NCBI GenBank assembly: GCA_036001065.1
Contig: DASYUQ010000169.1
Coordinates: forward strand, 1 to 63,492
Length of the DNA: 63,492 nt
DNA from: Candidatus Methylomirabilota bacterium
GTDB taxonomy: Bacteria; Methylomirabilota; Methylomirabilia; Rokubacteriales; CSP1-6
Reading direction: 5' to 3'
In this document: piece after piece, positions 7,213-59,737 of the stretch
Layout of the letters: every line of letters starts with the position of its first letter
Numbering within the stretch: position 1 is the stretch's first letter
Notes under the pieces: generated by a model
The model's database searches: none
Seen by the model: the letters and a program-made list of their open reading frames with translations, nothing else
What the model was told of the DNA's origin: nothing
Made by a program: the position numbers and the translations under genes

Positions 7213-7424
7213 TCGGAGGGGGACTCCGTCCCCCGTCCTCGTCGGAGGGGGCGCCTTCACGGGCGCGCCCAAGGGCGCGACGGCCCCCTCCGAGACCTCC
7301 CCCTAGTGCCGTTCCAACTATTCGCGCCTAGGAAGGCACCGTGTACGTCGTTCGTGGACAGATTTAGTATCAACAAGTTGGAACGGCACTAGGATAGGTC
7401 GCGCCGGCGGAGCCGGCGCTCGAG
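7213..7424 (+). repeat. GC-rich modular hairpin repeat, copy 2, interrupted by MITE
   Basis: The A and B hairpin modules occupy 7213-7301, and the terminal GCGCCGGCGGAGCCGGCGCTCGA-type module occupies about 7400-7424. A 90-bp element with terminal inverted repeats (7303-7392) splits them. The 272-bp gap between EF-G and threonine synthase otherwise holds nothing recognisable. Confidence 0.85.
7303..7392 (+). mobile_element. 90-bp MITE-like element, copy A
   Basis: The element has a perfect 17-bp terminal inverted repeat (CTAGTGCCGTTCCAACT) at both ends. Its interior is AT-richer than anything around it and has no coding capacity. An exact reverse-complement copy lies at 37680-37769. If the outer TA is read as the duplicated target, the structure fits a non-autonomous Tc1/mariner-IS630 type element. 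It is inserted inside a copy of the GC-rich repeat. No transposase is present in this window. Confidence 0.85.
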
Positions 7425-15928: not shown

Positions 15929-16257
15929 GCCAGCGGTGCGGACTCTTCGGCCTGGGCCTTGCGACGGAGCCAGGCCTCGTACGACTTTCCGGCCGCCGTG
16001 TCCTTGCCCGTGAACCGGACCGTGCGGACCGCGGCGTAACGCAGGGTGTGCGAGGCGCCGGTGGGGTCGAACAGCTGCAAGAACGGCTCGGGCACGTCGC
16101 GGTTGCGGTTGTAGACGTAGCCGACCACCTCGGTGCCGTCCCGCCGGACGATCGTGACGTCCCCGCGATAATCGAAGGCGAGGTCGATCACCTCGTCGAG
16201 GGTGACGCCGGCGCCGATCGTCGGCGACCAGCCCTCGACGGACCGCTCTTCCGTCAT
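15925..16257 (-). CDS. Conserved-looking 110-aa protein between hpnH and hpnG
   Basis: A small soluble protein of unknown family. The ATG at 16257 (MTEERSVEGWSPTIGAGVTL) is the first start after the upstream repeat. It contains predicted beta-rich segments (DVTIVRRDGTEVVGYVYNRN; LQLFDPTGASHTLRYAAVRTVRF) and a charged C-terminal helix (SYEAWLRRKAQAEES). No signal peptide, membrane segment or metal motif is seen. Its 3' end overlaps hpnG by 4 bp. A 57-bp repeat separates it from hpnH. Its position between two sequential pathway enzymes suggests a hopanoid-related accessory role, but nothing in the sequence names one. Confidence 0.7.
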   Translation of the reverse strand: MTEERSVEGWSPTIGAGVTLDEVIDLAFDYRGDVTIVRRDGTEVVGYVYNRNRDVPEPFLQLFDPTGASHTLRYAAVRTVRFTGKDTAAGKSYEAWLRRKAQAEESAPLA

Positions 16258-16260
16258 AAC

Positions 16261-16317
16261 CTCGTCTCGGACGCGGGGGCCCCAGCCCCCGGCCGGCCTG
16301 CGACTCGCACGACCATC
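16261..16317. repeat. 57-bp repeat family 2, copy a
   Basis: Matches 33195-33251 at 50 of 57 positions by eye and has the same length. It carries a GGGGGCCCCAGCCCC near-palindrome. It overlaps the last bases of hpnH including part of its stop codon (16316-16318). Confidence 0.7.
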
Positions 16318-20817: not shown

Positions 20818-20830
20818 TCGCGGCGAGCCT

Positions 20831-21586
20831 ATGATAAAGGTCGAGGGGCTCACCAAATCTTTTGGCAGCCAGCCGGTCCTCCGCGGCCTGGAGCTGGAAG
20901 TGCGCGATGGGTCGATCACGATCATCATCGGTCGGAGCGGCGGCGGCAAATCGGTCTTCCTCAAGCACCTGCTCGGCCTCCTGCGCCCGGACGCCGGCCG
21001 CGTCCTGGTGGGCGGCGTCGACCTGACCGGCGTCTCCCGGCGCGAGGTCGACCGGGTCCGCGAGCGATACGGGGTCGTCTTCCAAGGAGGCGCGCTCTTC
21101 GACTCGCTGACGTGCGCGCAGAACGTCGCCTTCCCGCTGCGCGAGAAGACCCGCCTGGGCCACGCGGAGATCGCCAAGCGCGTGGAGGCGGCGTTGGCCC
21201 AGGTCGGGCTGGAGGGCGTCGGCCCCAAGTTCCCGGAGGAGATCTCGGGGGGCATGCGCAAGCGCGTGGCGATCGCGCGGGCGCTCATCACGGAGCCGGA
21301 GATCGTCTTCTTCGACGAGCCGACGACCGGGCTCGATCCCATCCTCGTGAACAGCATCCACGGGCTCATCCGGGATCTCCACCGGCGCTTCGGCTTCACC
21401 GCGGTGATGGTGAGCCACGAGATCCCGGAGATCTTCGGAATCGCCGATACAGTGGCGATGCTGCACGACGGCCGGATCGTCGAGGTCGGCCCGCCGGAGG
21501 CGATCCAGGGGTCGCGGAATCCCATCGTCCAGCAGTTCATCCGCGGCGAGCCCGACCAAGGCATGGCCTTCAAGGAGAGCGGCTGA
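20831..21586 (+). CDS. mlaF: MlaF family lipid ABC transporter ATPase
   Basis: A 251-aa ABC ATPase. The Walker A motif is GRSGGGKS (34-41), the signature is ISGGMRKRVAIAR, Walker B is EIVFFDEPTTGLDP, and the switch histidine is in VSHE. Such proteins energise the Mla permease. The stop codon overlaps the mlaD start (TGATG). The ATG at 20831 lies 13 bp after mlaE. Confidence 0.9.
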   Translation: MIKVEGLTKSFGSQPVLRGLELEVRDGSITIIIGRSGGGKSVFLKHLLGLLRPDAGRVLVGGVDLTGVSRREVDRVRERYGVVFQGGALFDSLTCAQNVAFPLREKTRLGHAEIAKRVEAALAQVGLEGVGPKFPEEISGGMRKRVAIARALITEPEIVFFDEPTTGLDPILVNSIHGLIRDLHRRFGFTAVMVSHEIPEIFGIADTVAMLHDGRIVEVGPPEAIQGSRNPIVQQFIRGEPDQGMAFKESG

Positions 21587-22049: not shown

Positions 22050-22682
22050 ATGACGTCGCTACAGTGTGGGTTCGCGCTCGTGGTCGCCCTCGCCCTGGCC
22101 GCGGTGGTCCGCCCGGCGCCCGCGGCCGCCGCCGGTCCGACCGAGCAGCTTCGCGCCCAGATCGACAAGGTCGTGAAGACGCTCGAGGACCCCGAGCTCA
22201 ACAAGGAAGGCAAGAACACAGAGCGCCGGGTGGCGGTGCGCAAGATCGCGGAGGAGATCTTCGACTTCGGCGAGACCGCCAAGCGCTCGCTGGCGCGCCA
22301 CTGGCTGGCGCGCACGCCGGCCGAGCGCGGTGAGTTCGTGGCGCTGTTCGCCGATCTCCTGGAGCGCTCGTACATCTCGAAGGTCGAGCTGTTCGACGGC
22401 GAGCGGATCACCTACATCGGAGAGACCATCGAGGGCGACCAGGCCGTCGTGAAGACCAAGATCATCACCAAGCAGGGGACCGAGATCCCCGTCGACTACC
22501 GCCTGCTGCGGAAGGGCGAGCGCTGGCTCGTCTACGACGTGATCATCGAGGGCGTGAGCCTGGTCGCCAACTACCGCACGCAGTTCAACAAGATCATCCA
22601 GACCTCGTCCTACCAGGAGCTGGTCAAGAAGATGAAGACCAAACAGGAAGAGTTCCTCGAGCAGGAGAAGAAGCGGACATGA
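22050..22682 (+). CDS. mlaC: MlaC/HpnM-type periplasmic lipid carrier
   Basis: A 210-aa protein with a signal peptide (FALVVALALAAVVRPAPAAAA) and the MlaC (toluene-tolerance Ttg2D) fold. Features include ELNKEGKNTERRVAVRKIAEEIFDF-type helices and the C-terminal VDYRLLRKGERWLVYDVIIEGVSLVANYRTQF. Members shuttle lipid between inner and outer membranes; the hopanoid-cluster version is called HpnM. Its 3' end overlaps the PEP-mutase gene by 4 bp (ATGA), so the lipid transporter and the phosphonate genes are translationally coupled. Confidence 0.88.
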   Translation: MTSLQCGFALVVALALAAVVRPAPAAAAGPTEQLRAQIDKVVKTLEDPELNKEGKNTERRVAVRKIAEEIFDFGETAKRSLARHWLARTPAERGEFVALFADLLERSYISKVELFDGERITYIGETIEGDQAVVKTKIITKQGTEIPVDYRLLRKGERWLVYDVIIEGVSLVANYRTQFNKIIQTSSYQELVKKMKTKQEEFLEQEKKRT

Positions 22683-24346
22683 GCAAGGCGCGCGCGCTCC
22701 GCGAGTTGCTGGCCCGTCCCGGCCTGGTCCCCGCGGTGGGGGCCCACGACGCGCTCAGCGCCAAGCTGATCGAGGCCGCGGGGTTTCCCGTGGTCTGGTC
22801 GTCCAGCTTCACCGTCTCCGCCGCCCAGCGCGCCATGCCCGACGTCAACCTCCTGACGATGACCGAGACGCTGGAGGCGGCGCGGCACATCGACAACGCC
22901 GTGAGCGTCCCCGTCATCGCGGACTGTGACAACGGCTACGGCAATGTCGTGAACGTCGTGCGGACGGTGGAGGAATACGAGCGGGCGGGCATCGCCGGCA
23001 TCTGCATGGAGGACAACCTCTTTCCCAAGAAGTGCAGCCTCTACCCGGGGATGCGGCGCGAGCTGGCATCGATCGAGGAGCACGCCGGCAAGATCCGCGC
23101 GGCCAGGAAGGCCCAGCGGGATCCGGCGACGGTCATCATCGCCCGCTCCGAGGCGCTGATCGCCGGCTGGGGGATGAAGGAGGCGCTGCGGCGCGCCTAC
23201 GCCTACGCCGAGGCCGGGGCCGACATGATCCTGATGCACTCCAAGGCGCCGACCGCGGCCGAGGTGCTCGAGTTCATGCGGCTCTGGGACCGGCCCACGC
23301 CCATCGTGGTGGTGCCCACCCTCTACCCGTCGGTGACCTTCGAGGAGCTGGAGGCGGCGGGCGTCAAGCTCGTCATCTGGGCGAACCAGGTGCTGCGGGG
23401 CGCCGTGAAGGGAGTGCAGGAGACGCTGGCGACGCTCCGGCGGGCCCGCTGCCTCGACGCCCTGGCCCCCCACATCGTCACGCTGGAGGAGATCTACCGC
23501 CACGTCGGGGTGGACGAGTTCAAGCAGATCGAGACGGAGTTCCTGCCGCGGGGCGCCTCCGACGTGCGGGCCGTCATCATCGCGGCGGGCTCGGGGAAGT
23601 CGCTCCTGCCGCTGACGGAAGACCGGCCCCAGTGCATGCTCGACATCAAGGGGCGGACGGTGCTGGAGCGGCAGCTCGAGACATTGCGCGCCTGCGGCGT
23701 CCAGGAGATCGCGGTGGTCCGCGGCTACCGCAAGGAGACCGTGACGGCCCCGGGGGTGCGCTTCTACGACAACGATGCCTTCGACGAGAGCGGCGAGCTC
23801 GCCTCGCTCTTCGCGGCCGAGCCCGAGCTGCACGGCCGCGTCCTCTTCCTCTACTCGGACATCCTGTTCGAGCGCGCGGTGCTGGAGAAGGTGCTCCGCG
23901 CCGAAGGGGACGTCGTCATCGCCGTGGACCGCGCCTGGGTGGACCAGCGGGACCGCCTGCTGCCGCTGGCCAAGCCCGTGGATCTGGTGGTCACGTCCGA
24001 CCCGCCCCGGCCCGGCCGCCGCTCGCTCGGCGAGGACTGGCGTGACGAGCTGGTGCTGATCGGCCAGCGCATCGCCCCGGAGGCGGCCACCGGCGAGTTC
24101 ATCGGGCTGGCGGCGTTTTCGCCGCGGGGCGTGGAGCTCGCGCGCGAGACCCACGCCCGCGCCGTGGCCGCGGGCGCCGCGCCCTTTCACGAGGCGGCCA
24201 GCATCCGGTACGCCGCCTTCACGGACCTGCTGCAGACGCTGGTGGCGACCGACCACCCCGTCACGTGCGTGAGCACGTGGAAGGGCTGGCTCGAGATCGA
24301 CACGTTCGAAGACTACCAGCGCGCCTGGGCCGAGATCAGGTCGTAG
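22679..24346 (+). CDS. pepM: Phosphoenolpyruvate mutase-like protein fused to nucleotidyltransferase domain
   Basis: A 555-aa fusion. Residues 1-290 are a PEP mutase/isocitrate lyase-superfamily domain that would rearrange phosphoenolpyruvate to phosphonopyruvate. Metal/substrate residues are visible in ADCDNGYG (D82, D84), E111-D112, R156 (IARSEALIAGWG) and H187 (LMHSK). The usual mutase loop EDK-x5-NS is changed: here it is E111-D-N-LFPKK-C119-S120. Residues 296-555 are a sugar-nucleotidyltransferase-like domain (AVIIAAGSGKSLLPLT), comparable to the cytidylyltransferase fusions of phosphonate head-group pathways. In that loop the usual Arg is Ser308 and the PK Lys is Gln318, so its activity is uncertain. 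The downstream decarboxylase supports the phosphonate assignment despite the loop change. Confidence 0.8.
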   Translation: MSKARALRELLARPGLVPAVGAHDALSAKLIEAAGFPVVWSSSFTVSAAQRAMPDVNLLTMTETLEAARHIDNAVSVPVIADCDNGYGNVVNVVRTVEEYERAGIAGICMEDNLFPKKCSLYPGMRRELASIEEHAGKIRAARKAQRDPATVIIARSEALIAGWGMKEALRRAYAYAEAGADMILMHSKAPTAAEVLEFMRLWDRPTPIVVVPTLYPSVTFEELEAAGVKLVIWANQVLRGAVKGVQETLATLRRARCLDALAPHIVTLEEIYRHVGVDEFKQIETEFLPRGASDVRAVIIAAGSGKSLLPLTEDRPQCMLDIKGRTVLERQLETLRACGVQEIAVVRGYRKETVTAPGVRFYDNDAFDESGELASLFAAEPELHGRVLFLYSDILFERAVLEKVLRAEGDVVIAVDRAWVDQRDRLLPLAKPVDLVVTSDPPRPGRRSLGEDWRDELVLIGQRIAPEAATGEFIGLAAFSPRGVELARETHARAVAAGAAPFHEAASIRYAAFTDLLQTLVATDHPVTCVSTWKGWLEIDTFEDYQRAWAEIRS

Positions 24347-25560
24347 TGACCGGACGCGAGTTCGCCGCCCTGCTGGAGCGCCGGGGATTCGATTTCTTCG
24401 CGGGCGTACCCTGCTCGCTGATCGAGGACCTGATCGCGGCGCTCGAGAGCCATCCGCGCCTCCCCTACATCGACGCCGTCCGCGAAGACGTGGCGGTGGG
24501 CCTGGCCGGGGGTGCCTGGCTCGCCGGTCGGCGCCCCGCGGTCCTCATGCAGAACTCGGGGCTCGGCACGAGCCTGAACGCGCTCGCCTCCTTCGCCTTG
24601 ATGTACGGCCTGCCGGCCCTGCTCCTCGTCACCTGGCGCGGCTTCGGCGGCCAGGACGCGCCCGAACACATTCTCATGGGCGAGATCTCGCCGCGCCTGC
24701 TGGACCTGCTGGGCATTCCCTATCACGTGCTCGCCCGCGACTCGCTCGAGGCTGACGTCGCCTGGGCGCGGGAGCAGATGGACGCCCGCATGAGCCCGGT
24801 CGCGCTGCTCGTCCCGCCCGGCCTATTTCATTCGGAGGGGGCATCTTCCTCGGAGGGGGGCTTCGCCCCCTTGCGATCGTCGGAGGGGGCCTCGACGGCC
24901 CCCTCCGAGGCCTCCCCCAGGACGAGGATTGCGCCGGCGAAGCCGGCGCTCGAAGTGCGGTCGCTCCACCACGCCGAGGATAGGCCGTTGGTGGCGAGGA
25001 TTTCGCGGATGCAGGCGATCGCGGCGGCGATCAAGCAGTTGGGCGACGAGCCGGCCATCCACGCCAACGGCTACCCGTCGCGCGAGTCCTGCGCGATCGC
25101 CGACCGCCCGCAGAATTTCTACATGATCGGCTCCATGGGCCTCGCTTCGGCCATCGGCCTGGGCGTGGCGCTCGGCCGCCCCCAACGGCGCACGATCGTC
25201 TTCGACGGCGACGGTAACCTCCTGATGAACCTCGGCATCATCGCCAACGCCACCGCGCTGGCTCCCCCCAACTTCATCCACTGCGTCTTGGACAACGAGG
25301 CGTACGGCTCGACCGGCAACCAGCGGTCGGCGTCGGCCCACGTCCGGCTCGATCGAGTGGCCCGGGCAGCCGGCTACCGGACGGTGGCGGCGGTGACGGA
25401 GGCCGACGAGGTCGCCGCGGCGCTCCGGACGATGCTTTCCTCGGACGGTCCCCACTTCCTCCTCGTGAAGGTGACACGGGAGCAGGCGAAGGTCCCGCGG
25501 ATCCCCCACACCCCGCCGGCGATCCGCGACCGCTTTCGCGCCACCGTGCTGGGAACATGA
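24346..25560 (+). CDS. ppd: Phosphonopyruvate decarboxylase carrying an in-frame repeat insertion
   Basis: A 404-aa thiamine-diphosphate enzyme converting phosphonopyruvate to phosphonoacetaldehyde, the step that makes phosphonate synthesis irreversible. The Pyr domain is residues 1-160 with the likely catalytic Glu at 47 (AVREDVAVGLAGGAW). The PP domain begins near 215 and has the TPP/Mg motif G288-D-G-N with a partner Asn in VLDNEAYG. Residues S163-E203 are encoded entirely by a copy of the GC-rich repeat and lie in the interdomain linker. Without them the length is 363, close to normal. The GTG at 24346 overlaps the pepM stop codon by one base. The 3' end overlaps the next gene by 4 bp. 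Confidence 0.85.
   Translation: MTGREFAALLERRGFDFFAGVPCSLIEDLIAALESHPRLPYIDAVREDVAVGLAGGAWLAGRRPAVLMQNSGLGTSLNALASFALMYGLPALLLVTWRGFGGQDAPEHILMGEISPRLLDLLGIPYHVLARDSLEADVAWAREQMDARMSPVALLVPPGLFHSEGASSSEGGFAPLRSSEGASTAPSEASPRTRIAPAKPALEVRSLHHAEDRPLVARISRMQAIAAAIKQLGDEPAIHANGYPSRESCAIADRPQNFYMIGSMGLASAIGLGVALGRPQRRTIVFDGDGNLLMNLGIIANATALAPPNFIHCVLDNEAYGSTGNQRSASAHVRLDRVARAAGYRTVAAVTEADEVAAALRTMLSSDGPHFLLVKVTREQAKVPRIPHTPPAIRDRFRATVLGT
24832..24954 (+). repeat. GC-rich modular hairpin repeat, copy 4, inside the ppd coding sequence
   Basis: 123 bp, exactly 41 codons, beginning and ending on codon boundaries of ppd. It has the A, B and terminal modules seen in the intergenic copies, including GCGCCGGCGAAGCCGGCGCT. 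The translated part is Ser/Ala/Pro-rich with SEG, APSEASP and IAPAKPALE motifs and no stop codon. Confidence 0.9.
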
Positions 25561-26297
25561 AGGCCATCATCCTCGCCGCCGGCGTGGCCCGCCGGCTCGC
25601 GCCGCTCACCGACCGGACGCACAAGTGCCTGCTGCCCGTGGGCGACCGGCCCCTGCTCACTCGGATGCTGGCCACCCTGGAGGCCGTCGGCGTCGCCGAA
25701 GCGGTGCTCGTCGTCGGTCACTGCGCGGACCAGATCCGCGCGGTGGCGGGCGCGCGCTTCGGCCGGATGAGGGTTCGCTATATCGACAACCCCGAGTACA
25801 CCAGGGGCTCGGTGCTGTCGCTCTACGCCGCGCGCGAGCACCTCGCCGAGCCCGCCCTGGTGATGGACGCCGACGTGCTCTTTCCCCGCGAGCTCCTGCG
25901 CCGCCTGCTGGCGGCGCCGGCTCCCAGCGCCTTCCTCCTCGATCACGGATTCCAAGACACGGGTGAGGAGGTGAAGTACTACACGCGGGGCGATCGGGTG
26001 ATCGCGCTCGGCAAGAAGGTCGTGCCCGAGTCCTGGGAGCTCGTGGGCGAGGGCGTGGGCTTCTTCAAGTGCGGCGCCGAGGCCGGCCCCCAGCTGGTCC
26101 GCCTGCTCGAGCGCGTCATCGCCGAGGGCAACGGCCTCAACGAGTACGAAGACGCCCTGCACCTGCTGGTCGCGCGGCATCACGTGGGGTGGGTCGACAT
26201 CACCGGCCTGCCCTGGACCGAGATCGACTTCGCCGAGGACCTGCGCCGGGCGCGGGACGAGGTGCTGCCGCACGTCGTCCGGCTCGACGGCGCGTGA
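25557..26297 (+). CDS. Sugar-phosphate/alcohol-phosphate cytidylyltransferase-like NTP transferase
   Basis: A 246-aa nucleotidyltransferase with the canonical N-terminal loop ILAAGVARRLAPLTD, followed by HKCLLPVGD. It keeps the Arg and Lys lost in the PepM-fused domain. MDADVLFP supplies the metal-binding Asp, and DITGLPWTEIDFAEDL is the usual C-terminal signature. The family includes phosphocholine, inositol-1-phosphate and 2-aminoethylphosphonate cytidylyltransferases. The gene overlaps ppd and the CDP-alcohol phosphotransferase gene by 4 bp each, so a CDP-activated head group is the likely product. Inositol-1-phosphate or a phosphonate are the best candidate substrates. Confidence 0.82.
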   Translation: MKAIILAAGVARRLAPLTDRTHKCLLPVGDRPLLTRMLATLEAVGVAEAVLVVGHCADQIRAVAGARFGRMRVRYIDNPEYTRGSVLSLYAAREHLAEPALVMDADVLFPRELLRRLLAAPAPSAFLLDHGFQDTGEEVKYYTRGDRVIALGKKVVPESWELVGEGVGFFKCGAEAGPQLVRLLERVIAEGNGLNEYEDALHLLVARHHVGWVDITGLPWTEIDFAEDLRRARDEVLPHVVRLDGA

Positions 26298-27457
26298 TCA
26301 CCGAGGCCGCGCTCTATCTCGCGAGCCCCGCGGACGCGAGCACGGCGAGTTCCGCGGTGGCGGGACGGCCGGTCGCCTTCCGGATGCTGATGGCGGCGGT
26401 CCGCGCGGGGTGCCGCCGGGTGTACGTTCCGGACATCTTCCGCGCCAGCCACGTCGAGCGCGCCATCGCGGCCACCCCCTCCGCGCGCGCCGCCGCCGTC
26501 TGGCTCGCTCACGACGCGAAACCGCCGGGTGGGCCGCTCCTGCTCCTGCCCGCCGCCGCCGTCGTCCCGCCCTCCGCGCTGGCCCCGCTGCTGACCGCGC
26601 CTCCCCTCGCGCTTCTGACCGCCTCCCGCGGCGGCGACGCGCCCGTGGTCGCTGCCGGCGCGGCCCTGGCCGCGACGCTCTGGACGTCGATCGCGGCGGG
26701 TCGGCCGCTGGGAGACGCGCTCGGGCGCGCCCTCCAGAGCGCGGAGGTCGCGGCGATTCCGGGCCCCGGCTGGTACGTGCGAGCGGTGTCGCCCGCGGCC
26801 CGGAAGGAGGCGGAGGCGCATCTCTGCGCTGACCTGGCCAGTGCCATCGACACCTGGCTCGACACGGTCTTCCATCGGCGCCTGTCGCGTCCGCTGAGCC
26901 GGGCGGCGGTCGCAGCGGGCATGACGCCCAACCAGGTCACCCTGGCCAGCCTGCTGGTGGGCCTGGGGGCGGTCTGGTGCTTCTGGCAGGCGACGCCGGC
27001 GCGCGCGCTCGTCGGGCTGGTGTTCTACGCGGGCGCCGTCGTCCTCGACCACGCCGATGGCGAGGTCGCGCGGCTCACGCTCAGCGAGTCACCATTCGGC
27101 GCCTGGCTCGATGTGGCGGTGGACACCGCCATCCACGCGCTGCTGGTCGTGGCCATGGGCATGACGGCCCAGCAGGTCGGGGGCGACGGCGCCGCGCTGG
27201 CCGGGTTGTTGGCGGCGATCGGCGTCGTGGCCAGCGCGACGCTGACGCAGACCTCGCCGCCGGCCCGAGGCGGCCGGATCGGTGTGCTGCTCGACGCGCT
27301 GAGCAACCGAGACGGCTTCTACGCGATGCTCGTCATCTTCATCCTGGGGCTGGCGCTCCGGCCGGGCGCGCTCCCCGCGCTCATGATCTTCCTGGCGGTC
27401 GGCTGTCACGCTTTCTGGTTGAGCCGCCTCGTCTACCGGCTGACGCGGCTCAGCTGA
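26294..27457 (+). CDS. CDP-alcohol phosphotransferase with N-terminal degenerate NTP-transferase-like domain
   Basis: A 387-aa protein. The C-terminal ~190 residues are a CDP-alcohol phosphatidyltransferase membrane domain with a perfect signature: D252-x2-D255-G256-x2-A259-R260-x8-G269-x3-D273-x3-D277. The first ~170 residues look like a decayed nucleotidyltransferase fold (AGRPVAFRMLMAAVRAGCRRVYV; GPLLLLPAAAVVPPSALAPLL) without catalytic residues. This arrangement recalls the fused cytidylyltransferase/phosphotransferase of di-myo-inositol phosphate synthesis, with the active cytidylyltransferase here on the separate upstream gene. The GTG at 26294 overlaps that gene's stop. The 3' end overlaps the convergent oxygenase gene by 8 bp. 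Confidence 0.82.
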   Translation: MITEAALYLASPADASTASSAVAGRPVAFRMLMAAVRAGCRRVYVPDIFRASHVERAIAATPSARAAAVWLAHDAKPPGGPLLLLPAAAVVPPSALAPLLTAPPLALLTASRGGDAPVVAAGAALAATLWTSIAAGRPLGDALGRALQSAEVAAIPGPGWYVRAVSPAARKEAEAHLCADLASAIDTWLDTVFHRRLSRPLSRAAVAAGMTPNQVTLASLLVGLGAVWCFWQATPARALVGLVFYAGAVVLDHADGEVARLTLSESPFGAWLDVAVDTAIHALLVVAMGMTAQQVGGDGAALAGLLAAIGVVASATLTQTSPPARGGRIGVLLDALSNRDGFYAMLVIFILGLALRPGALPALMIFLAVGCHAFWLSRLVYRLTRLS

Positions 27458-33048: not shown

Positions 33049-33125
33049 TTCGAGCGCCGGCTCCGCCGGCGCAACCCCCTTCTTTGGGGGAGGCCTCGGA
33101 GGGGGCCGTAACGTCCGCCCTCCGA
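33049..33125 (-). repeat. GC-rich modular hairpin repeat, copy 6
   Basis: An inverted copy: terminal module (TTCGAGCGCCGGCTCCGCCGG) then the A module (TCGGAGGGGGCCG..CCCTCCGA). It begins 16 bp upstream of the heme-oxygenase-like gene's start. The ~600-bp gap 33034-33643 holds this repeat, the second 57-bp repeat copy and a molybdopterin oxidoreductase remnant. Confidence 0.8.
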
Positions 33126-33194
33126 TGAGTACCCGCCGGCCGGGCGTTACACCGGCGGCTATCCGCGACGATGGCCCAGGGGCCTCTGCATAGG

Positions 33195-33251
33195 CTCGCC
33201 TCGGGCGCAGGGGCCCCAGCCCCTGGCCGCCCTGCGGCGCGCACGACCATC
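33195..33251. repeat. 57-bp repeat family 2, copy b
   Basis: Same length as 16261-16317 and matches it at 50 of 57 positions by eye, including the shared end CGCACGACCATC. It is intergenic here. Confidence 0.7.
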
Positions 33252-37442: not shown

Positions 37443-37444
37443 CC

Positions 37445-37551
37445 TCGGAGGGGGGCTTCGCCCCCCTTCCGAAATTCCTGGTCAGAGGGGGCCTCGCGGC
37501 CCCCTCCGAACCTCCCCAATGGATGTTGCGCCGGTGAAGCCGGCGCTCGAA
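37445..37551 (+). repeat. GC-rich modular hairpin repeat, copy 7
   Basis: Starts 2 bp after the malate synthase stop codon. It shows the B hairpin (TCGGAGGGGGGCTTCGCCCC), an A-type hairpin and the terminal module GCGCCGGTGAAGCCGGCGCT. The 323-bp gap 37443-37765 contains this, an inverted copy and a MITE, and nothing else. Confidence 0.88.
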
Positions 37552-37600: not shown

Positions 37601-37675
37601 TTCGAGCGCGGGCTTCGCCCGCGCAATCCTTGCTGGGGGGGAGGCCTCGGAGGGGGCCGTCGAGGCCCCCTCCGA
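37601..37675 (-). repeat. GC-rich modular hairpin repeat, copy 8
   Basis: An inverted copy (TTCGAGCGCGGGCTTCGCCC..., then TCGGAGGGGGCC..GGCCCCCTCCGA), facing copy 7 across a 49-bp spacer. A MITE begins 5 bp after it. Confidence 0.85.
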
Positions 37676-37679
37676 TGAC

Positions 37680-37769
37680 CTAGTGCCGTTCCAACTTGTT
37701 GATACTAAATCTGTCCACGAACGACGTACACGGTGCCTTCCTAGGCGCGAATAGTTGGAACGGCACTAG
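37680..37769 (-). mobile_element. 90-bp MITE-like element, copy B
   Basis: The exact reverse complement of 7303-7392 over all 90 bases. It has the same 17-bp terminal inverted repeats and possible TA target duplications. Its right end supplies the TAG stop codon (37766-37768 on the minus strand) of the VOC protein gene. Identity of the two copies indicates recent movement. Confidence 0.88.
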
Positions 37770-43867: not shown

Positions 43868-43900
43868 TCTTGATAATCCCGGTCGAAAATAGGATTTTGC

Positions 43901-44860
43901 GTGATCGGAATACTCGACGAGCACCCAGAGTGGTCGAACCGGCTCCTGGCCGAGCTCGCCCAGCGTCGCTTGGCCTTCGAGAAGATCGACCTCTCGACCC
44001 ACGCCCACGACCCGCGCCAGCGGGAGCGCCGCTACTCCGTGATCGTCAACCGCACGAGCCCGTCGTCGCACCGGCGGGGGCACGGCAACGTCCTCTTCTA
44101 CGCCGAAGCGCTCCTCAACCATTACCAGGGGCTCGGCATTCCCGTGATCAATTCCCTCGCGGCGTGGCGCTTCGAGAAGTCCAAGGCCCTGCAGATCGAC
44201 CTCTTCGAGCGCCTCGGCGTCCGCTACCCCCGGACGATCGTGGTCAACCACCGCGACCAGATCCTGAAATCCGTCGACCGCCTGCGGTTCCCGCTCCTGC
44301 TCAAGCCCAACATCGGTGGTTCGGGCGCGGGCATCGTGCGCTTCGACGCGCTCGCGGAGCTCGAGGCGGCGATCGAGCGGCTCGATTTCGGCCCCGACGG
44401 CACCGCCCTCCTCCAGGAGTTCATCGACTCCGCGGACGGCGCGATCGTGCGCGTCGAGATGCTGGACGGTGAATACCTTTACGCCATCCGCGTCGTGCGG
44501 CAGGTCCAGAGCGACTTCAATCTGTGCCCCGCCGACCTGTGCCGGGTGCCCGAAGGCGGCGGCCGGCCACCGGACGAGCTGTCGGCCTGCCCGGCCGATG
44601 CGAAGCCCGGGCTCAGCGTCACGCGGTTCGACGCGCCCGCGGAGGTGATCGAGGCGGTCCGCCGGCTCACCCGCGCCGCCTCCATCGACGTCGGCGGGAT
44701 CGAGTATCTGGTGAGCCAGGCCAATGGGCAGGTGTACTTCTACGACATCAACGCCACGTCGAACTTCGTGGCGAACGCGCCGGCGGTGCTCGGCTTCGAC
44801 CCCTTCCCCCGCTTCGCCGACTATATCGTCCGCGTGGCGACGCGCGGCCGGCGCGGCTGA
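43901..44860 (+). CDS. RimK-like ATP-grasp ligase
   Basis: A 319-aa ATP-grasp protein. The nucleotide-binding segment is FPLLLKPNIGGSGAGIVRF, and the metal-binding acidic residues are in YFYDINATSNFVANAP. An N-terminal pre-ATP-grasp domain with VIVNRTSPSSHRRGHGNV and GIPVINSLAAWRFEKSKALQ resembles RimK/LysX ligases that join amino acids or make peptide-like bonds. The GTG at 43901 is preceded by AGGA and by a TTGACA promoter. It stands alone, converging on the aldehyde oxidoreductase operon. Confidence 0.78.
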   Translation: MIGILDEHPEWSNRLLAELAQRRLAFEKIDLSTHAHDPRQRERRYSVIVNRTSPSSHRRGHGNVLFYAEALLNHYQGLGIPVINSLAAWRFEKSKALQIDLFERLGVRYPRTIVVNHRDQILKSVDRLRFPLLLKPNIGGSGAGIVRFDALAELEAAIERLDFGPDGTALLQEFIDSADGAIVRVEMLDGEYLYAIRVVRQVQSDFNLCPADLCRVPEGGGRPPDELSACPADAKPGLSVTRFDAPAEVIEAVRRLTRAASIDVGGIEYLVSQANGQVYFYDINATSNFVANAPAVLGFDPFPRFADYIVRVATRGRRG

Positions 44861-46826: not shown

Positions 46827-46832
46827 ACGTGC

Positions 46833-46935
46833 TCGGAGGGGGGCTCTGCCCCCCTTCCGAATCCATAGCTGGAGGAGGCCGCACGGCCCCCTCCAAGCCA
46901 CCCCAATGGTTGCGCCGGCAAAGCCGGCGCTCGAA
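46833..46935 (+). repeat. GC-rich modular hairpin repeat, copy 9
   Basis: Sits between the FAD-oxidoreductase and AOR genes, directly upstream of the AOR start. It contains the B hairpin (TCGGAGGGGGGCTCTGCCCC), a diverged A hairpin and the terminal module GCGCCGGCAAAGCCGGCGCT. Confidence 0.85.
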
Positions 46936-46983
46936 GGAGCACGCTGGGGACGCGATACCACTTCGAGATGGACACAGGATGTC

Positions 46984-59629: not shown

Positions 59630-59633
59630 ATCG

Positions 59634-59707
59634 TCGAAGGGGGCCTCGACGGCCCCCTCCGAGCCACCCCCAGAAATCGGTTGCGCCGGCGGAAGCCGGC
59701 GCTCGAA
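59634..59707 (+). repeat. GC-rich modular hairpin repeat, copy 11
   Basis: Starts 5 bp after the zwf stop codon. It holds an A hairpin (AGGGGGCCTCGACGGCCCCC) and the terminal module GCGCCGGCGGAAGCCGGCGCT. It lies between convergent zwf and lipoprotein genes. Confidence 0.85.
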
Positions 59708-59737
59708 CCGCGCCCGACGATCGCGCGGACTAACTAG

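Follow-up and report, generated by a model that had tools for sequence, protein, structure and literature searches.

The window analysed here, a stretch of 63,492 nucleotides from a draft metagenome assembly of 239 contigs, carries a gene for a phosphonopyruvate decarboxylase-like protein (ppd; 24346-25557, plus strand, 404 codons, with the stop codon at 25558-25560). The gene starts with GTG, which overlaps the stop codon of the PEP mutase-like gene upstream. Its open reading frame is intact, and TPP-enzyme domains (PF02776 and PF02775) are recognised at the N and C termini of the 404-residue product. The best NCBIfam match of the product is TIGR03297 at 300.3 bits, which is below the curated cut-off of 312.5, and the neighbouring PEP mutase-like gene points to phosphonopyruvate decarboxylase as its probable function. 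At 22679-27457, a PEP mutase-nucleotidyltransferase fusion, ppd, a second nucleotidyltransferase and a CDP-alcohol phosphatidyltransferase adjoin in series, which suggests a phosphonolipid pathway.

The repeat copy in the linker of ppd

The two domains of Ppd are joined by a linker of 58 codons (24826-24999, plus strand), delimited by orthologue comparison. Within this linker lies a 123-bp copy of a palindromic repeat (24832-24954, plus strand), recognised by the family core, comparison with a sister species, a DNA profile and RNA folding. The earlier note had the coordinates, the frame and the residue numbers right: the copy is in frame and contributes 41 codons without a stop, which encode SEGASSSEGGFAPLRSSEGASTAPSEASPRTRIAPAKPALE (residues 163-203). 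From 5' to 3' on the plus strand it comprises a 48-bp module with a partial repeat start and the GGGGGGCTTCGCCCCC hairpin (24832-24879), the main hairpin TCGGAGGGGGCCTCGACGGCCCCCTCCGA (24880-24908; repeat comparison and folding), a spacer with a conserved CCTCCCCC block (24909-24928), and the core hairpin TTGCGCCGGCGAAGCCGGCGCTCGAA (24929-24954), which is the best-conserved portion of the repeat family. The RNA folding z-score of the copy is -4.05. Membership in a dispersed family, as had been claimed, is borne out by the 24-nt core, for which the 4.46-Mb genome has 158 matches against none for a reversed control pattern, and by a DNA profile that was built without the ppd copy and still detects it (E=2.5e-18).

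A weak candidate 3' tail follows the core hairpin (24955-24984, plus strand). By eye, a recurring 3' tail of the repeat resembles 24955-24974 at 14 of 20 positions. Because of this likeness, and because an insertion in a TRAP permease (see below) includes seven residues past the repeat core, the ppd element probably extends beyond 24954. The AlphaFold2 model (23 sequences) predicts two confident Ppd domains (mean pLDDT 84.6), with residues 166-209 below a pLDDT of 50. The repeat segment is thus modelled as an unstructured linker joining the two thiamine-enzyme domains, where the earlier note had placed it. Predicted fusion peptides include SEGASTAPSEASPR and IAPAKPALEPR. A published soil metaproteome (PXD004965; Butterfield et al., PMC5103831) contains proteins of Rokubacteria.

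Outside its own genome, the best named match to Ppd is that of Candidatus Rokubacteria bacterium 13_1_40CM_69_27 (L151), which has the same linker as the same-genus genome G052 and was counted with it as one record, the sister species. The ppd of G052 carries an in-frame element at the same site, encoding an identical peptide where shared, and the profile built without the ppd copy detects it as well (E=1.1e-17). There the element measures 69 bp (23 codons); it lacks the first 48-bp module and 6 bp of the spacer, and both indels are in frame. An addition of exactly 41 codons therefore describes the ppd of the window and is not a property of the element. Between the two species, the common 69 bp contain two differences, both synonymous, and 12 of the next 30 sites (24955-24984) differ. 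The proposal that a dispersed repeat was inserted into an interdomain linker, is kept in frame and would be tolerated as protein is supported.

Homologue searches recovered 27 full-length ppd orthologues in the family, and the same profile found no element in the other ppd genes of the family beyond the two same-genus species. In genus 3, ppd (L063) contains a hairpin that looks similar by eye; the profile detects nothing there, and we rejected it as a carrier. Linkers in other genera range from 28 to 79 residues and are non-homologous and unalignable, so that no repeat-free orthologue carries a homologous 41-residue linker. Removal of the 41 codons leaves an enzyme of roughly normal length, as had been stated, with a linker of about 18 residues, which is shorter than that of every orthologue. 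For this reason, and because the linker cannot be aligned outside the genus, the orthologues provide no clean empty site for ppd, contrary to what the earlier note expected.

Two things had been missed: a former gene junction at this very site and the copies in other proteins. Rokubacterial homologues with both halves are fused at all 23 named loci of a species-representative collection, and 53 of 54 non-rokubacterial homologues (from Nitrospirota, Nitrospinota, Binatota and others) consist of two separate genes, alpha and beta. In the split homologues, the first gene stops at the start of the rokubacterial linker and the second begins at its end. Because they meet exactly at the linker, it appears to be the former junction of two genes, provided that the split form is ancestral, as we assume.

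A repeat family at gene borders

A variant core gives 48 further matches in the genome, some of which overlap partly. We analysed 153 distinct copies with their flanks, a part of them by individual inspection; gene calls around them rest on codon usage and homology, and the related genomes are likewise draft metagenome assemblies. All 60 Rokubacteriales genomes searched (4 families, 27 genera) carry the repeat, and matches in other families of the class are sporadic only, to the point of being nearly absent. From the first hairpin to the core its median length is 80 bp, with about 70% GC. At least one GC-rich hairpin comes with the CCTCCCCC spacer and a GCGCCGGC-GAA-GCCGGCGC hairpin, to which a short 3' tail is added. 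Identity across genera exceeds 90%, which could reflect selection on the repeat instead of mobility.

Most copies abut genes. Among the 70 copies whose left flank is coding in the same direction, 49 begin no more than 6 nt from the stop codon of that gene; when the left gene lies on the opposite strand, most copies start no more than about 10 nt from the predicted beginning of that gene. The repeat may either land mostly at gene borders or be retained there. In some 15 more copies of the genome the stop of the upstream gene lies inside or just past the element, and these are possible C-terminal extensions by the element, although misplaced boundaries may explain part of them. Taken one by one, the six frames are each free of stops in 115-136 of the 153 copies. 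Frames are mostly open because the repeat is GC-rich, so the openness is not a coding adaptation, and the stop-free frame in ppd loses the special meaning that the earlier note gave it. Recurrent 3' tails terminate in CTAG or CTCAT. CTAG lies within 14 nt on the left side of 36 of the 153 copies and within 60 nt on the right side of 38 (3.3 expected), an enrichment that may be due in part to a separate CTAG-flanked repeat beside several copies.

Repeat comparison identified further copies in the window at 33049-33105 (minus strand; core pattern at 33049-33072), 37443-37551 (plus strand), 37601-37678 (minus strand; common to the collinear DNA of G052) and 59630-59712 (plus strand). Another copy, at 46830-46983 (plus strand), is missing in the sister species. 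G052 reads uninterrupted through GGGCTCATACGGCCACC at this position and the inserted state has CTCATACG on both sides, so that this one empty site gives a duplication of CTCATACG (or CTCAT).

Matches of the element to Rfam are sub-threshold only. No rokubacterial repeat like this one is described in the literature found with the word combinations tried, and the full text of one Rokubacteria genome paper mentions no repeats, palindromes or intergenic elements.

In-frame copies in other genes

We tested codon usage on either side of every copy and then ran family searches; together these identified six more in-frame copies inside genes of the genome, one of which (LivM-LivG) is less sure. All seven in-gene copies sit in linkers or loops, chiefly between domains. 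Five of the seven, a small sample, read the core in one of the six frames. Two further candidates were rejected, an ORF of 76 aa (L114) and the second candidate of L122, as neither spans a gene.

The clearest insertion is in a TRAP fused permease (L099; TIGR02123, 615 bits), which has 37 extra residues containing RLPSEGGFAPLPNLPPGRVAPAEPALEP. The 16 orthologues compared read ..ATPDR-IPWSDL.. at the insertion point, which is a clean empty site.

PurH (L136) is 567 residues long and its model has 511 positions; compared with solved structures, about 50 extra residues lie between its two enzyme domains. Element DNA is detected, with E between 1.2e-15 and 2.1e-12, in the PurH genes of five genomes from four genera (G000, G052, G003, G056 and G030). 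In other genomes most PurH linkers are short, and some are longer without a significant DNA match. Occupancy is scattered on the PurH tree, with four changes of which at least two are forced, a distribution not distinguishable from that of shuffled labels, and it varies within genus 2. On this pattern, recurrent insertion and inheritance followed by loss are inseparable, and recurrence is not proven. The same ambiguity, a hot spot or one old and diversified insertion, was reported for R. japonica (PMC3767692). The PurH of G010 (L373) has a linker that exceeds the short ones by about 90 residues and holds several copies of the tandem peptide repeat ARPTAAGTSEPQ; here the linker at this site has grown in another way.

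In a multi-GAF histidine kinase, the element lies between the membrane segment and the first GAF domain, an arrangement also present in a genus-2 genome. The kinase region (L256/L288) is 93% identical in a genus-2 genome and has only a 37% match in the sister species, a distribution that suggests horizontal transfer or loss. In a Get3/ArsA tandem ATPase, the element separates the two ATPase domains. CobB carries an antisense element between its CbiA and glutaminase domains, which is found in G052 too and, weakly, in G006 from another genus. Finally, a LivM-LivG open reading frame reads through an element at the junction; this assignment is less certain because LivM and LivG are normally separate genes. 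Judging from these sequences, ppd is not a lone case, as the element occurs in at least five other proteins of the genome, and the generalisation to other genes is stronger than the original ppd case.

Origin of the coding copies and relation to known repeats

We consider it probable that the ppd segment is a copy, now translated, of a modular and non-autonomous palindromic repeat of the whole order, which would be mobilised in trans and neutral in disordered linkers. We infer that the repeat is, or was, mobilised by a putative enzyme; no mobilising enzyme for it was found in the genome, whose single Y1 transposase locus (Y1_Tnp) adjoins an apparent TnpB gene of the IS605 type. In a disordered linker or loop, an insertion whose net length is a multiple of three would escape purifying selection, and the inserted repeat would be translated as a flexible spacer rich in Ala, Pro, Ser and Glu while the enzyme keeps working. 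Such in-frame insertions would be tolerated because the repeat is largely stop-free in six frames. The ppd copy may thereby illustrate a route from a non-coding repeat to protein at the one-time boundary of two genes. More tentatively, the order-wide repeat might act as a recurrent source of linkers, with PurH above all, Ppd and CobB being refilled and module-swapped in frame across genera; we regard this as possible, though doubtful. If true, core enzymes would continuously receive coding linkers from a mobile non-coding DNA family.

A hot spot hit by separate landings or by gene conversion, in place of one inherited insertion, would account for the shared ppd core, in which 2 of 69 sites differ against 12 of the next 30, and for the scattered PurH occupancy with its variation inside genus 2. 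However, the two ppd copies share site, orientation and frame in collinear DNA of about 93% identity, and we judge separate events unlikely.

The former junction raises a different possibility, namely that the repeat occupied the spacer between the alpha and beta genes and became coding when they fused. The exact coincidence of the ppd linker with the split in 53 of 54 non-rokubacterial homologues, the usual start of the repeat 0-6 nt past a stop codon, and the repeat at the LivM-LivG junction are all in keeping with such a scar. Nevertheless, all 23 named rokubacterial loci are fused and the element is found in the ppd of one genus only, which makes insertion after fusion more parsimonious; the TRAP and PurH copies, moreover, lie inside long-established single genes. 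We therefore rate a fusion scar as quite improbable.

We give still less credit to the idea that in-frame copies are kept for a role of the nucleic acid, such as an mRNA hairpin acting in stability or translation coupling, with the peptide as a by-product. The strong folding, the synonymous nature of both species differences in the shared 69 bp, and the tight placement of intergenic copies at gene ends would be expected of it, but two substitutions are too few to discriminate, the CobB copy is antisense, and hairpin modules are freely gained or lost between sister species. An assembly artefact, chimera or pseudogene, conceivable in a draft metagenome assembly, is for practical purposes refuted by the intact open reading frame with both TPP domains and by the independent assembly of another species (L151), which has the same insertion with conserved flanks.

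A translated repeat of this kind has precedents. The best-known palindromic repeats that code for protein are those of Rickettsia and Wolbachia, whose intracellular genomes are reduced, and weak selection could explain them there. The sequences compared here indicate that such repeats can occur outside the Rickettsia lineage, in large GC-rich soil genomes and in core enzymes such as PurH. Because they are found in such genomes and enzymes, and with clean empty sites, this suggests that tolerance hinges on frame openness and linker disorder, and not on genome decay.

Rickettsia and Wolbachia palindromic elements (RPE/WPE) are hairpin-rich, measure about 100-150 bp and are found in intergenic DNA as well as in frame within unrelated conserved genes, and orthologues may hold different element groups at one locus (PMC2229807, PMC10969869, PMC3767692). 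The rokubacterial repeat is likewise hairpin-rich and has copies between genes as well as in-frame copies within conserved ones, which upholds the parallel with Rickettsia palindromic elements drawn in the earlier note. It is set apart by lineage and build, being restricted to one order, about 70% GC, and composed of hairpin-spacer-hairpin modules. Unlike RPE, most copies abut stop or start codons and are largely open in six frames, and about 5% lie in genes, compared with nearly half of the RPE in R. conorii (PMC10969869). By analogy, it appears to work like RPE while belonging to a different family by lineage, any sequence relation aside.

REP elements are 20-40 bp long, carry a GTAG or CGTC tag and lie mostly downstream of genes; intragenic ones, for example in Opitutus terrae, encode 20-30 residues (PMC3733652). 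The rokubacterial repeat resembles them in being high-copy, palindromic and located at gene ends, with some copies inside genes. In contrast to REP, its median length is 80 bp and its flanks are often CTAG or CTCAT. We rejected a REP/RAYT system, as size and tag differ and the genome has no repeat-flanked RAYT. ERIC/RU-1, RU-2, RU-3 and the Correia 107-bp element are small non-autonomous intergenic repeats with open frames fused in frame to genes (PMC2759123, PMC2229807), and in function the rokubacterial repeat is parallel to them too. Several of these families have terminal inverted repeats, and many of the reported fusions are in small or poorly conserved loci, whereas the rokubacterial fusions are in linkers of conserved enzymes.

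The repeat agrees in part with the definition of a MITE, as it is short and non-autonomous and has empty sites (46830-46983; TRAP); visual inspection of both ends of the 46830-46983 insertion revealed no terminal inverted repeats. A second repeat, 82 bp long and nearly invariant, has 12-bp terminal inverted repeats (TGCCGTTCCAAC...GTTGGAACGGCA) and CTAG at both sides. It occurs in the window at 7303-7392 and 37680-37769 and in 29 copies in the roughly 1 Mb sampled. The copy at 37680 is missing in the sister species, where the empty site has one CTAG, and this repeat looks like a recently active classic MITE. At 43888-44763, the window contains 875 bp of coding-like sequence that G052 lacks at the collinear site. 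A dispersed repeat of a third kind (CTCG..GGGGCCCCAGCCCC..) is found at 16255-16317 and 33189-33251 of the window and at about 3296-3455 of L235, and where the window has 20822-20835 the sister species is about 159 bp longer, with sequence similar to this third repeat in the additional stretch.
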